In this document: positions 2,569-5,095 of the stretch, piece by piece
Layout of the letters: every line of letters starts with the position of its first letter
Numbering within the stretch: position 1 is the stretch's first letter
Assembly: GCA_029974875.1 (NCBI GenBank)
Contig: JARKQP010000306.1
Location: 1-5,095, forward strand
DNA from: Mobilitalea sp.
Lineage (GTDB): Bacteria > Bacillota_A > Clostridia > Lachnospirales > Lachnospiraceae
DNA: 5,095 bases
Reading direction: 5' to 3'
Translations under genes and position numbers: made by a program
The notes under the pieces: generated by a model
What the model was told of the DNA's origin: nothing
The model's database searches: none
The model's input: the letters and a program-made list of their open reading frames with translations, nothing else

Positions 2569-3162
2569 ATGTTGGAAATTATATTGGTGAGGCATGGCGA
2601 GACAGACAGCAACAGGAAGGGAACATATCTGGGATGGACCGATGTGGATTTGAATGAGGAAGGCATTAGACAAGCTTATGAAGCCAAGCGTAAATTGAGC
2701 GGTCAAAGGATTGATGCCATTTACTCAAGTCCTCTGTTAAGGACGAGAAGGACTGCAGAAATTATCAATGAGAGCTTCGGCCTGGAGGTTAAATTTGAGG
2801 AAAGCCTTAAAGAACGCTGCTTTGGAGTGTGGGAGGATCTGACACATGGAGAAATCCTTGAGAGATATCCTGCAGAATATGATCTGTGGAAAAAGGATCA
2901 TGTAAATTATTGCATGGAAGGCGGAGAGAGCACAATTCAAGCTTATAGACGGGTTACAGCCTTTCTTGACAGGCTTGTGAAGGAGAATAACAGCGGAACC
3001 TTCATGCTTGTCACTCATCTGGGGTGCATAAGAAAAATGGTTTCATACCTGCTGGATATGGGCCTGGAGGGCTCGTGGCGTTTTAGAGTGGATAATTGCA
3101 GCATAACCAGGATTAGTATCAATGATGAGAAGTATGCATATATGACTTTAATGAATGGCTAG
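2569..3162 (+). CDS. cobC: Histidine phosphatase family protein, probable alpha-ribazole phosphatase (CobC-like)
   Basis: This 197-residue cytoplasmic enzyme belongs to the phosphoglycerate-mutase-like branch of the histidine phosphatases. The catalytic set is complete: RHGE motif with nucleophile H9 and phosphate-binding R8, R58 in SSPLLRT, acid E82 in KERCFG, and H150 in VTHLG. Length and motif spacing fit CobC, which removes the 5'-phosphate of alpha-ribazole phosphate or adenosylcobalamin phosphate late in cobalamin assembly. Sequence alone cannot separate CobC from general phosphoglycerate-mutase-like phosphatases; the call rests on the upstream BtuC/BtuD-type importer. The gene follows the ATPase stop by 43 nt. 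ATG 2569 is chosen because GTGAGGGA (2557-2564) is its ribosome binding site; an in-frame GTG at 2557 lies inside that site. The stop falls 7 nt before the next gene's promoter. Confidence 0.7.
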   Translation: MLEIILVRHGETDSNRKGTYLGWTDVDLNEEGIRQAYEAKRKLSGQRIDAIYSSPLLRTRRTAEIINESFGLEVKFEESLKERCFGVWEDLTHGEILERYPAEYDLWKKDHVNYCMEGGESTIQAYRRVTAFLDRLVKENNSGTFMLVTHLGCIRKMVSYLLDMGLEGSWRFRVDNCSITRISINDEKYAYMTLMNG

Positions 3163-3169
3163 AAATATG

Positions 3170-3198
3170 TTGACAAAACTTTCCCTTGGCATTACAAT
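3170..3198 (+). promoter_or_regulatory. Sigma-A promoter for the first ECF S-component gene
   Basis: A perfect -35 box TTGACA (3170-3175) is separated by exactly 17 bp from a -10 box TACAAT (3193-3198), one base from consensus. The predicted start of transcription is near 3204-3206. It begins 7 nt after the phosphatase stop codon, with no terminator in between. The S-component gene can therefore be read from this promoter and perhaps also by read-through. The layout matches the promoter at 3918-3946 base for base in spacing. Confidence 0.85.
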
Positions 3199-3209
3199 AT
3201 CTGAAATTA

Positions 3210-3239
3210 ATCGATATGATAAGTAGATGTATCGATACA
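3210..3239. promoter_or_regulatory. Operator 1: paired ATCGAT boxes downstream of promoter 1
   Basis: Two palindromic ATCGAT cores (3210-3215 and 3231-3236) lie 21 bp apart centre to centre, two helical turns, so proteins on them would sit on the same DNA face. The right box is part of a perfect 12-bp palindrome, TGTATCGATACA (3228-3239); the left box matches that sequence at 8 of 12 positions. The element can also be read as ATCGATA-N13-TATCGAT. It starts 12 nt after the -10 box, covering about +5 to +35, a position typical of repression. The same element with identical spacing occurs at 3958-3987. The binding protein is not encoded here. Confidence 0.75.
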
Positions 3240-3263
3240 ATTCGAGAAGGCGAGGGGAATAAA

Positions 3264-3806
3264 TTGAGTAGAGTAAATACAAAAAAAATTGTATTAGCAG
3301 GATTATTTATTGCGTTAGTGTTTTTATGTACATATTTTACGCGAATACCGGGTCCCATACCGCCGGGCTATATAAATTTCGGTGATGCGGTTATCAAGGT
3401 TGCCGCCGTATTGTTCGGGAAAAGCTTTGGATTTTTTGCAGGCTCTATAGGCTCGGCCATAGCAGATCTGGCATCGCCGGGCGGGATAATATATGCTCCT
3501 ATCACTTTCATAGTAAAAGGGGTGGAAGGGTACATCATTGGTGCAATAGCTTCTTCCTCAGCCGAATCAGGCAGGAAAAGAGAAGTGCTGCGGATTGTTT
3601 CTGTAATTGCGGGAGCAATTGTAATGATTGCAGGTTACTTTCTGGCTGAGGCTACCGTATTAAAGGTTTTCGACAGCAGCTTCGGGTATGTTGCGGCTGT
3701 GACCAACCTTCCTTTTAATGTCATTCAGGGAGGAGTCAGCTCCATAGTCGGGTATTTATTGGTTACAGTGCTGGAAAGGGCCGGTGTAAAGAAGGCGCTT
3801 ATTTGA
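3264..3806 (+). CDS. ECF transporter S component (vitamin-type substrate-binding membrane subunit), paralogue 1
   Basis: This 180-residue hydrophobic protein has about six membrane segments, the size and shape of an ECF S component, which binds a vitamin or precursor in the membrane and docks onto a shared EcfA-EcfA'-EcfT module. Features typical of the DUF1393-like group are an N-terminal helix LAGLFIALVFLCTYF (11-25), INFGDAVIKVAAVLFG (37-52), a segment IADLASPGG (66-74), and YAPITFIVKGVEGYIIG (77-93). It is clearly paralogous to the gene at 4007: both share APxTFIVxGVxGYIIG and the same length. TTG 3264 is chosen as start because GAGGGG (3252-3257) precedes it by 6 nt; an in-frame TTG at 3186 lies within the promoter and would put the operator in coding sequence. 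No EcfA/T genes are present, so it belongs to the group using a shared energising module. Its substrate is not readable; vitamin B6 compounds are the leading guess from context. Confidence 0.85.
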   Translation: MSRVNTKKIVLAGLFIALVFLCTYFTRIPGPIPPGYINFGDAVIKVAAVLFGKSFGFFAGSIGSAIADLASPGGIIYAPITFIVKGVEGYIIGAIASSSAESGRKREVLRIVSVIAGAIVMIAGYFLAEATVLKVFDSSFGYVAAVTNLPFNVIQGGVSSIVGYLLVTVLERAGVKKALI

Positions 3807-3830
3807 GATTTTATCTGTTTTAAAATTATT

Positions 3831-3871
3831 GCAAAGAAGCTGATTCTGCTACTGGAATCAAGCTTCTTTGC
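3831..3871 (+). terminator. Hairpin after the first S-component gene, probable terminator
   Basis: A strong inverted repeat begins 24 nt after the stop codon. The arms GCAAAGAAGCT (3831-3841) and AGCTTCTTTGC (3861-3871) are perfectly complementary. The stem continues with GATTC/GAATC (3842-3846, 3855-3859), separated by a single bulged A and closed by an 8-nt loop. The tail is TTTGTAATATCTTT, a weak, interrupted T tract, so termination may be partial. Its position between the first gene and the second promoter supports a terminator role. Confidence 0.65.
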
Positions 3872-3917
3872 TTTGTAATATCTTTACCCTCATCTATATA
3901 TTTTTTGATAATCTGTA

Positions 3918-3946
3918 TTGACAATTATACTCCAGGTAGCTAAAAT
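3918..3946 (+). promoter_or_regulatory. Sigma-A promoter for the second S-component and aminotransferase genes
   Basis: A perfect -35 box TTGACA (3918-3923), a 17-bp spacer, and a -10 box TAAAAT (3941-3946) form a near-consensus promoter. The expected transcript start is near 3952-3954. It sits in the 200-bp gap between the two S-component genes, after the hairpin at 3831-3871. The distance from -35 to the operator is 40 bp, exactly as at the promoter at 3170. Confidence 0.85.
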
Positions 3947-3957
3947 ATTTAAAACTG

Positions 3958-3987
3958 ATCGATACACTTTATTGGTGTATCGATACA
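3958..3987. promoter_or_regulatory. Operator 2: paired ATCGAT boxes downstream of promoter 2
   Basis: ATCGATACA occurs twice as a direct repeat (3958-3966 and 3979-3987) with a 21-bp period. The right copy is the centre and right part of the perfect palindrome TGTATCGATACA (3976-3987), identical to that in the other operator. The left box matches it at 9 of 12 positions. Because the cores are palindromic, the whole also forms an inverted repeat, ATCGATACAC / GTGTATCGAT, with a 7-nt loop. It begins 12 nt after the -10 box, as at the first operator, and ends 8 nt before the GGAGG ribosome binding site. A bound repressor would block early transcription; an RNA hairpin role is a weaker alternative. 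Confidence 0.78.
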
Positions 3988-4006: not shown

Positions 4007-4549
4007 ATGCAGAACAATTATGCGGAAACTTACAAAACTGGCGTAAAAGTGAGAGATGTTGTTGTATCAGGCTTGTTGATAGCTCTTGTATTTGTAGCAA
4101 CCAAGTTTATCAATATCCGCCTGCCCATATCCATAAACGGTGGTCTCATTCATCTCGGAAATGTTGCACTTTTTATGTCTGCCATAGTTTTTGGCAAAAG
4201 AAAGGGAGCAGTAGCAGGAGCCTTCGGAATGGCTTTATTTGATGTTCTGTCCCCATATGCGGTATGGGCTCCTTTTACTTTCATTGTGAGAGGAGTTATG
4301 GGTTATATTATCGGCAGTATTGCACATGCTAAAGGAAAGCAAGGGATGAATATCGCTTTAAACGTCATAGCTATAGTTGCCGGGGGTATCTGGATGCTGG
4401 GAGGATATTATATCACTGAAGTGATACTTTATGGAAGCTGGGCAGCTCCTATGACATCTATACCGGGGAATATCACACAGATTGCCATAGGCGGGATATT
4501 GGGACTGCCTGTCGCCTACACCCTTAAGAAGCTGAAGCTTCCAATATAA
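4007..4549 (+). CDS. ECF transporter S component (vitamin-type substrate-binding membrane subunit), paralogue 2
   Basis: A 180-residue membrane protein paralogous to the product of the gene at 3264. Membrane segments lie at roughly 17-35, 46-63, 66-82, 88-106, 115-138 and 155-174. Shared landmarks are GLLIALVFVATKF (22-34), LIHLGNVALFMSAIVFG (47-63), and WAPFTFIVRGVMGYIIG (87-103). One difference in a conserved spot is GN (51-52), where paralogue 1 has GD (40-41); this may reflect a different ligand. It also has about ten extra polar N-terminal residues. Start ATG 4007 follows an ideal GGAGG (3996-4000) with 6 nt spacing. The gene is read from its own promoter and is followed after 20 nt by an aminotransferase gene, so the transported compound may be that enzyme's substrate or product. 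Family assignment is strong; substrate (possibly pyridoxamine or pyridoxal) is inferred. Confidence 0.87.
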   Translation: MQNNYAETYKTGVKVRDVVVSGLLIALVFVATKFINIRLPISINGGLIHLGNVALFMSAIVFGKRKGAVAGAFGMALFDVLSPYAVWAPFTFIVRGVMGYIIGSIAHAKGKQGMNIALNVIAIVAGGIWMLGGYYITEVILYGSWAAPMTSIPGNITQIAIGGILGLPVAYTLKKLKLPI

Positions 4550-4569: not shown

Positions 4570-5095
4570 TTGAAGAATCCGCTGATAATGACGCCGGGAC
4601 CAACGTACATACATGAAGAGGTAAGGAAGGCTATGGCCCGGGAGATCACAAACCCTGACCTGGACCCTGATTTTTATGAGTTTTATAAACTAACCTGCGA
4701 ATGCATAAAAGTTTTAATGAATACAAAAAATGATGTGCTGATCCTGAGCGGAGAAGGGATACTGGGCCTAGAAGCAGCCTGTTGCTCTGTGATTGAGCCG
4801 GGCGACAGGGTGTTGTGCATAGATAACGGTATTTTTGGAAAAGGCTTTGGAGAATTTGCTTCCATGTATGGAGGAGATGTTACATACTTTACGTCGGAAT
4901 ACCGCAAGGCTATCGATATAAATGAACTAAGGGAATTTCTGAAAAGGGATAATAACTTTAAGGCTGCTACCCTGGTACATTGTGAGACGCCCTCAGGAAT
5001 AACAAACCCTGTGAGCGCGATATGCCCTTTATTGAAGGAATACGGAATACTATCAATAGTTGATTCCGTTTCTGCCATAGGGGGGGAGGAGCTTG
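4570..5095 (+). CDS. Class V aminotransferase, pyridoxamine-pyruvate aminotransferase-like (partial, N-terminal 175 residues)
   Basis: This is the first 175 residues of a PLP-fold (type I) aminotransferase of the alanine-glyoxylate aminotransferase group; the right edge cuts the gene. Visible landmarks are the N-terminal MTPGPTYIHEEV (7-18), SGEGILGLEAA (60-70) in the cofactor-phosphate region, GIFGKGFGEFA (87-97), HCETPSG (137-143), and IVDSVSAIGG (163-172) with D165 expected to pair with the pyridine nitrogen. The Schiff-base lysine lies beyond the window. Ordinary alanine-glyoxylate enzymes have SGTG and E-S-S-T-G at two of these points. SGEG, GKGFG and ETPSG here recall pyridoxamine-pyruvate aminotransferase, which converts pyridoxamine and pyruvate to pyridoxal and L-alanine. 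Start TTG 4570 is 8 nt after GGAG (4558-4561); an in-frame GTG at 4561 overlaps that site. It lies 20 nt after the S-component gene with no terminator between, so co-transcription is likely. Other class V activities remain possible. Confidence 0.8.
   Translation, partial: MKNPLIMTPGPTYIHEEVRKAMAREITNPDLDPDFYEFYKLTCECIKVLMNTKNDVLILSGEGILGLEAACCSVIEPGDRVLCIDNGIFGKGFGEFASMYGGDVTYFTSEYRKAIDINELREFLKRDNNFKAATLVHCETPSGITNPVSAICPLLKEYGILSIVDSVSAIGGEEL

Follow-up and report, generated by a model that had tools for sequence, protein, structure and literature searches.

The two promoter–operator modules in a 5,095-nucleotide stretch of Mobilitalea sp. DNA (hereafter the window) are very probably operators of a PdxR-type regulator of the MocR subfamily, by which the supply of vitamin B6 would be controlled. 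This assignment is based on the sharing of the module by vitamin B6 genes of related genomes, on its co-occurrence with one group of MocR proteins, and on the presence of the palindrome at some promoters of the regulator itself. We infer binding by the MocR protein, PLP as its ligand, and repression from comparisons of sequences.

Two Modules of Identical Geometry in the Window

All genes of the window were on one strand and ran in the same direction: a FecCD/BtuC-like permease, an ABC ATPase (1296-2525), an alpha-ribazole phosphatase (CobC, 2569-3162), two ECF transporter S-components (S1, 3264-3806, and S2, 4007-4549), and the start of a class V aminotransferase (4570-5095) that is truncated by the window end; these genes, as well as the other window features described below, lie on the + strand. 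The ATPase has 409 residues with a long C-terminal extension past the ATPase domain, and its top NCBIfam model was NF007082 (a 402-residue corrinoid transporter ATPase), with a score under the cut-off. CobC scored above the cut-off of TIGR03162 (170.3 vs. 162.9 bits) and carries no module of its own. S1 and S2 belong to PF07155 and are 36% identical; S1 is a probable vitamin B6 importer and S2 a probable pyridoxamine/vitamin B6 importer. The aminotransferase follows directly 3' of S2, likewise without its own module in the window. Between S1 and S2 lies a strong, terminator-like hairpin with a weak T run (3831-3871; −24.3 kcal/mol over 3825-3885, z −5.9 by folding), which was not among the calls of a terminator scan of the window. 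Because this hairpin splits S1 from the second module, S1 and S2–aminotransferase look like two transcription units under the same switch. The MocR regulator gene was absent from the window contig, and no known RNA, riboswitches included, was found in the window at gathering scores.

The initial annotation had described, twice, TTGACA, 17 bp, a -10 box, 11 bp and ATCGAT, with a second ATCGAT 21 bp on, and this proved exact to the base. In module 1, the -35 box TTGACA (3170-3175) is followed after 17 bp by the -10 box TACAAT (3193-3198), and the predicted start is the A run at 3204-3206. Operator box 1 (3207-3218) contains ATCGAT at 3210-3215, 11 bp after the -10 box; its right half-site (3213-3218) reads GATATG vs. 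the consensus GATACA. The perfect palindrome TGTATCGATACA occupies 3228-3239, 29 bp after the -10 box, with ATCGAT at 3231-3236. Module 2 consists of TTGACA (3918-3923), TAAAAT after 17 bp (3941-3946), box 1 (3955-3966; ATCGAT at 3958-3963, 11 bp after the -10 box, and half-site GATACA at 3961-3966), and again TGTATCGATACA at 3976-3987 (ATCGAT at 3979-3984), 29 bp after the -10 box, so that the second box is indeed the identical 12-mer in both modules, as had been claimed. The two promoters were the two best promoter matches in the window (11/12 each). ATCGAT was seen five times against 1.3 expected, a number reached by 1 of 200 shuffles, the fifth copy being at 4912 within the aminotransferase reading frame; not one ATCGAT pair at 21 bp arose in 2,000 Markov simulations. 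The further claim that differing filler sequence spoke against a simple duplication stood in part. The geometry does occur before unrelated genes as well, but from the -10 box through box 2 the modules are 73% identical over 48 nt, and an old duplication together with the S gene is therefore possible.

S1 often lies downstream of the cobalamin gene cobC, yet has the B6 switch: this arrangement was seen in the window (2569-3806) and at seven loci of relatives (L001, L003, L005, L008, L022, L058 and L211). Cobalamin control, for which the BtuCD and CobC neighbors might speak, was rejected, since the module is absent from those window genes and stands at B6 genes in relatives.

Conservation of the Module and Its Target Genes

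The S1 family is narrow, comprising 114 proteins at E 0.001, and 80 S1 loci were collected by scanning genome contigs with an alignment of 34 S1 proteins. The initial annotation had made its reading depend on conservation of the motif upstream of orthologous S-component genes, and such conservation was found. In Anaerobacterium chartisolvens (L001), whose S1 is 63% identical to that of the window, the module occurs at both S1 and S2, the S2 copy with the 21-bp spacing. It also precedes S1 in L003, L005, L006, L008, L016, L018 and L022, and it is retained where the S proteins share 44-76% identity with those of the window. In L013 the MocR regulator is present and a site with 22-bp spacing precedes S2, with none at S1.

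The targets in relatives include pdxS-pdxT (PLP synthesis), pyridoxamine kinase, S1, S2, and the pyridoxamine-pyruvate-transaminase-like gene. A pattern search of the 24 genomes of the S1 loci revealed a site before pdxS-pdxT in L096; in L094 the site precedes pyridoxamine kinase, followed by another S-component, and in L143 it precedes S2 with the aminotransferase. The aminotransferase has an operator of its own, standing alone, in two Acetivibrio loci (L102 and L082), as well as in L188; in L218 a site precedes a short frame of 174 aa. The NCBIfam cut-offs were exceeded by PdxS, PdxT and pyridoxamine kinase; apart from genes checked with NCBIfam or Pfam, labels came from BLASTP against a small reference set.

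With two mismatches allowed, the looser pattern gave 43 matches vs. 15 for its reversed control in the 24 genomes, and a shorter pattern with one mismatch showed no clear surplus over its control, so the exact 12-mer was used for counting. In the order to which A. chartisolvens belongs (58 genomes), TGTATCGATACA was present in 45 copies in 34 genomes, compared with 4 copies of the reversed control. We judged 37 of the 45 to be at a B6 gene or a MocR-family regulator gene, counting among them an additional site in G051, which lies 189 bp upstream of that genome's pdxS site, as well as the site at the distant regulator homologue of G057. Seven were within unrelated frames (G001:C10, G050, G051:C97, G052, G021, G007 and G020:C48) and one (G020:C133) was unclassified. 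In a class sample of 391 genomes, the 12-mer was found in 82, and its reversed control in 26 by hand count. Among 17 further class palindromes that were opened (L232-L248), 2 were at S2-like genes and 15 had no B6 gene of the reference set, 11 of the latter being inside reading frames; thus, beyond the order, little weight attaches to the 12-mer by itself. In L236 and L237, from this wider class, the palindrome lies at 1501, at the start of S2-like genes with 38-40% identity. Upstream of S2–aminotransferase in Acidaminobacter (L057), TGTATGCATACA occurs within 220 bases upstream of 10001, with GC rather than CG at its center; this genome has a regulator homologue at 46% identity, and a co-evolved operator variant is possible.

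Operator Geometry and Base Conservation

The geometry was measured in 46 script-collected sites at S1, S2, aminotransferase, PdxS and kinase genes, two of them the window's own. The distance from the -10 box to the palindrome was exactly 29 bp in 32 sites and 30 bp in 6 (five pdxS sites of a distant group and the aminotransferase of G036). Regarding the remaining eight, L013 was scored on box 1, its box 2 being 22 bp further on; in L191, L196, L197 and L209 the script had picked the palindrome of the adjoining regulator gene instead; and in L181, L182 and L200 it had picked a different promoter, L200 reading by eye as TTGACA-17-TAATAT at 29 bp. All 32 sites of the 29-bp geometry had a promoter spacer of 17 bp; TTGACA was exact in 27, and a consensus match of 11/12 or better was likewise found in 27.

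Letter counts over these 32 sites gave 1.1-1.8 bits for each palindrome position, 0.8-1.6 bits for the right half of box 1 (GATACA), and 0.3-0.9 bits for its left half. The right half is thus the conserved part of box 1, and a complete ATCGAT was present there in only 9 of the 32 sites, both window sites among them. The exact palindrome TGTATCGATACA occurred in 20 of the 32. The operator pattern is therefore GATACA-N15-GATACA (21 bp) plus an inverted TGTATC, i.e., a half-site plus a palindrome, with direct and inverted boxes lying whole helical turns apart, as in MocR operators. The poor conservation of the left half of box 1 makes the earlier proposal of two dimers on two palindromes less likely. 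A run of A lies 7-8 nt past the -10 box (A in 29/32 and 28/32 sites at those two positions) and is the likely start site. Counted from this start, the palindrome would lie at about +23 to +34 and box 1 at about +2 to +13, of which +8 to +13 form the conserved half.

Co-occurrence with a Group of MocR Regulators

GntR matches numbered 5-23 in each of ten genomes scanned, and nine of the ten shared one MocR group, whose members were 59.6-65.7% identical to the queries (G008 and G001). The other MocR proteins fetched reached at most 34% over long alignments and 38% over one stretch of 82 residues. G007, which lacks this group, has an S1 without the module. Within the order, 36 of the 58 genomes had a MocR match at E 1e-100: 24 formed a close group (at least 60% identity; including one fragment, one split gene and one gene with an internal stop), 11 were at 45-49%, and one was at 40%. 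Three regulators of the close group and one 46% homologue all contained GntR (PF00392) and Aminotran_1_2 (PF00155) above cut-off. All nine close-group genes inspected, including one that is split in a draft, had the PLP-lysine motif SFSK, and eight had NPTG. By these sequence features the regulator is a member of the MocR subfamily, a GntR winged helix fused to an aminotransferase-like domain predicted to sense PLP. In L113 (Acetivibrio straminisolvens), a stop divides the draft regulator gene in two, with the operators intact, from either a sequencing error or a recent loss.

The exact palindrome was present in 29 of the 36 genomes with a MocR match vs. 5 of the 22 without (p 1.8e-5). Seven of the 36 lacked it, and three of these (G013, G054 and G055) had sites with 1-2 mismatches at S genes. 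Among the five genomes with the palindrome and no MocR match, G057 carries the palindrome within the first codons of a 41-45% homologue; G031, a 1.6-Mb genome, has its site at pdxS; and in G021, G007 and G020 the opened sites were in unrelated frames, one G020 site being unclassified. At the S1 loci (L001-L022 and L058), the module was present in 8 of the 9 genomes that have the close group and in none of the 14 that lack it (Fisher 1.8e-5), with the reservation that two of the 14 (G011 and G015) have a 45-48% homologue and that some of the 14 S1 genes are operon-internal (e.g., L058), where a missing upstream module says little. In the class sample, 33 of the 60 genomes that had a MocR match at E 1e-100 contained the palindrome vs. 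49 of 331 without (p 1.5e-10; at most three candidates scored per genome), while 27 of the 60 had no exact palindrome.

The regulator genes themselves carry the palindrome in part of the genomes. In the close group it stood (0-2 mismatches) right after a -10-like box in 5 of 13 regulator genes examined (G003, G005, G006, G018 and G051), and the other 8 had no own site within 2 mismatches; where present, it occurs once, unaccompanied by a second box 21 bp away. Among the 45-49% homologues of the order, 8 of 11 had the exact palindrome in their first codons, so that the operator doubles as N-terminal coding sequence. In L190-L197 and L209 this palindrome lies at 1501, within the first codons of the regulator. 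In the class sample the regulator match was preceded by the palindrome at a distance of about 30-120 bp in G082, G098, G115, G166, G210, G251, G271, G290, G356, G373 and G390. The suggestion of a MocR/GntR-type protein is thus supported by the co-occurring orthologue group and by the palindrome at MocR genes; of the expected co-occurring or autoregulated MocR gene, co-occurrence was borne out, and candidate sites for autoregulation were found in some genomes only.

Probable Targets in Vitamin B6 Supply

Among the 24 close-group genomes, pdxS was over the Pfam cut-off in 13, of which 11 had the palindrome at pdxS (G050 with 2 mismatches). In every one of the 11 without a pdxS hit (G001, G003, G006, G008, G016, G018, G022, G036, G052, G055 and G058), the operator was found at either an S-component gene or a kinase plus S-component, as would be expected of cells relying on B6 import; many of the 11 are drafts, in which a missing gene may be a gap. 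The oxidase PdxH needs oxygen. Its C-terminal domain was matched in none of the 24 close-group genomes, while Escherichia coli and two others of 14 controls matched. The aminotransferase was present in 8 of the 24 at E 1e-60, five of these without pdxS, and G037 (L218) had a shorter aminotransferase frame with the operator.

The window aminotransferase is pyridoxamine-pyruvate-transaminase-like, with this activity being putative and assigned by similarity. The top PDB match of the full-length homologue in L143 was 2z9u (191.5 bits; next 166.9), which we take to be pyridoxamine-pyruvate aminotransferase, the PDB label reading "aspartate aminotransferase." The top NCBIfam model was also pyridoxamine-pyruvate aminotransferase, at scores below its cut-off of 600 bits (129 for the cut window protein, 245 and 257 for full-length relatives).

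For S2 and for the S1 family profile, the sole PDB match at E 0.01 was HmpT/PdxU2 (4hzu_S). Pyridoxamine was extracted from HmpT (PMC4860826); according to PMC9997740, the characterized B6 transporters of prokaryotes are limited to PdxU, PdxU2/HmpT and P5PA. Two of the four HmpT pocket residues given in PMC4860826 are kept in both proteins: Asn140 and Gln143 correspond to N155 and Q158 in S2 and to N152 and Q155 in S1. Glu41 and His84 of HmpT differ, being Asn52 and Arg95 in S2 and Asp41 and Lys85 in S1, and the preferred B6 vitamer may therefore differ. The Asp/Lys pair in S1 vs. the Asn/Arg pair in S2 is a hint that S1 and S2 may also differ from each other in the B6 vitamer they take up.

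Mode of Action and Alternative Explanations

The regulator probably represses its target promoters. The operator lies downstream of the -10 box (about +8 to +34), which implies repression, unlike the characterized PdxR activators; since this is where polymerase sits or passes, and since the promoters are near consensus, a PLP-corepressed repressor is the simplest reading. When PLP is sufficient, the regulator would bind the palindrome (about +23 to +34), the upstream half-site (about +8 to +13, two helical turns away) would assist, and initiation at the strong promoter would be blocked. A drop in PLP would release the regulator, and S1, S2 and the transaminase would be made. S1 and S2 would then import B6 vitamers through the shared ECF motor, and the transaminase would convert pyridoxamine and pyruvate to pyridoxal and alanine, from which the kinase would produce PLP by an oxygen-free route.

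The fixed distance of 29 bp is stricter than a simple road-block needs, leaving room for a mechanism with polymerase contact. Based on one exact -10 distance across five unrelated gene families, a B6 MocR repressor might touch or lock promoter-bound RNA polymerase, stalling its escape, instead of only competing for DNA, and might govern an oxygen-independent pyridoxamine salvage (ECF import, transamination with pyruvate, kinase) replacing PdxH in strict anaerobes; we regard this extended proposal as rather unlikely. It is less likely still that this PdxR-type MocR protein activates its targets, or that it does so without PLP and represses them with PLP, although PdxR proteins do activate pdx genes without PLP (PMC5320631, PMC11619246) and the invariant 29-bp spacing could reflect contact with RNA polymerase. 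In all 32 sites with the 29-bp distance, the operator begins downstream of the -10 box, and box 1 falls within the polymerase footprint, which usually extends from about -55 to +20. Moreover, promoters with a consensus match of 11/12 or better (27/32) would need no activation.

If repression by the MocR protein is set aside altogether, the site might be used by another DNA-binding family, such as a HutC-type GntR repressor, the MocR link being a coincidence of shared ancestry. TGT groups are common among GntR-family binding motifs, and each of the ten scanned genomes offers 5-23 GntR matches, but a sizeable share of the genomes have the palindrome at their MocR gene, its targets are genes of PLP supply, and whether an S1 locus has the operator follows the presence of the MocR group; such a family is improbable. 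Selection for an RNA hairpin at the mRNA 5' end, with box 1 pairing box 2 for stability or attenuation, is more improbable again. The predicted 5' end of the S2 mRNA does fold at −18.2 kcal/mol (z −4.5), whereas that of S1 is near random (z −1.1), and a directly repeated palindrome folds this way automatically. No box-1/box-2 pair exceeded the column expectation by more than 1.3 sequences in the 32 sites, which argues that base pairing is not the conserved feature, and the single palindrome at close-group regulator promoters would have no partner. Hardly credible at all is a duplication of S2 with its promoter in which the shared geometry is mere descent devoid of regulatory meaning. The similarity of the modules and of the two S proteins within the window fits it, but the same geometry precedes unrelated pdxS, kinase and transaminase genes, survives at 44-76% S-protein identity, and is missing from S1 loci lacking the regulator group; the unrelated genes and the regulator-linked S1 loci already largely refute it.

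Significance and Comparison with Known Systems

The repressor reading, if confirmed, would widen the PdxR paradigm of pdx-gene activation. The results also offer a candidate substrate class, vitamin B6, for two groups of ECF S-components annotated by domain only, link the transaminase to B6 salvage in anaerobes without a match to the PdxH C-terminal domain, and provide a 12-bp tag, TGTATCGATACA, for locating B6 genes within this clostridial order. Acetivibrio is the present genus of Clostridium thermocellum. The latter has been reported to require pyridoxamine (PMC4143619), and the regulon in Acetivibrio species offers a testable reason for this requirement.

According to the initial annotation, the operator belonged to no described regulator. 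This holds for the operator letters, which the open literature contained only in an unrelated context, judged by title (they may be listed in the supplementary tables of PMC5320631), but not for the kind of regulator, as PdxR/MocR proteins are described (PMC5320631). PdxR and thermocellum were not found mentioned together in the open literature, and a search on MocR, pdxS and Ruminiclostridium gave no title on this operator among the matches listed. We thus found no prior description of the site and its locked promoter position, while the protein family is known.

The comparison with PdxR covered domains, targets, autoregulation and operator position. PdxR proteins of Bacillus clausii, Corynebacterium glutamicum, Listeria monocytogenes and streptococci likewise combine GntR and aminotransferase domains, and they activate pdx genes when PLP is absent (PMC5320631, PMC11619246). 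Their targets are pdxST, pdxK and pdxU-type transporters (PMC5320631, PMC11619246), resembling the pdxS-T, kinase and S-component genes here, whose control we infer. PdxR is autoregulated (PMC5320631, PMC11619246), and here corresponding candidate sites exist in part of the genomes. In contrast, activation of pdx genes with PLP as anti-activator does not fit the present system, judging by operator geometry only: the operator is downstream of the -10 box of the targets, a repressor geometry not serving activation. The present regulon also has a pyridoxamine-pyruvate-transaminase-like gene, which section 11 of PMC5320631 does not mention among the targets of PdxR. MocR operators with three boxes that alternate in direction form a recognized class (33 of 284 regulogs; PMC5320631), to which GATACA, TGTATC and GATACA, with the two GATACA boxes two helical turns apart, correspond; what differs from that class is the position, fixed here at 29 bp from the -10 box across five gene families.
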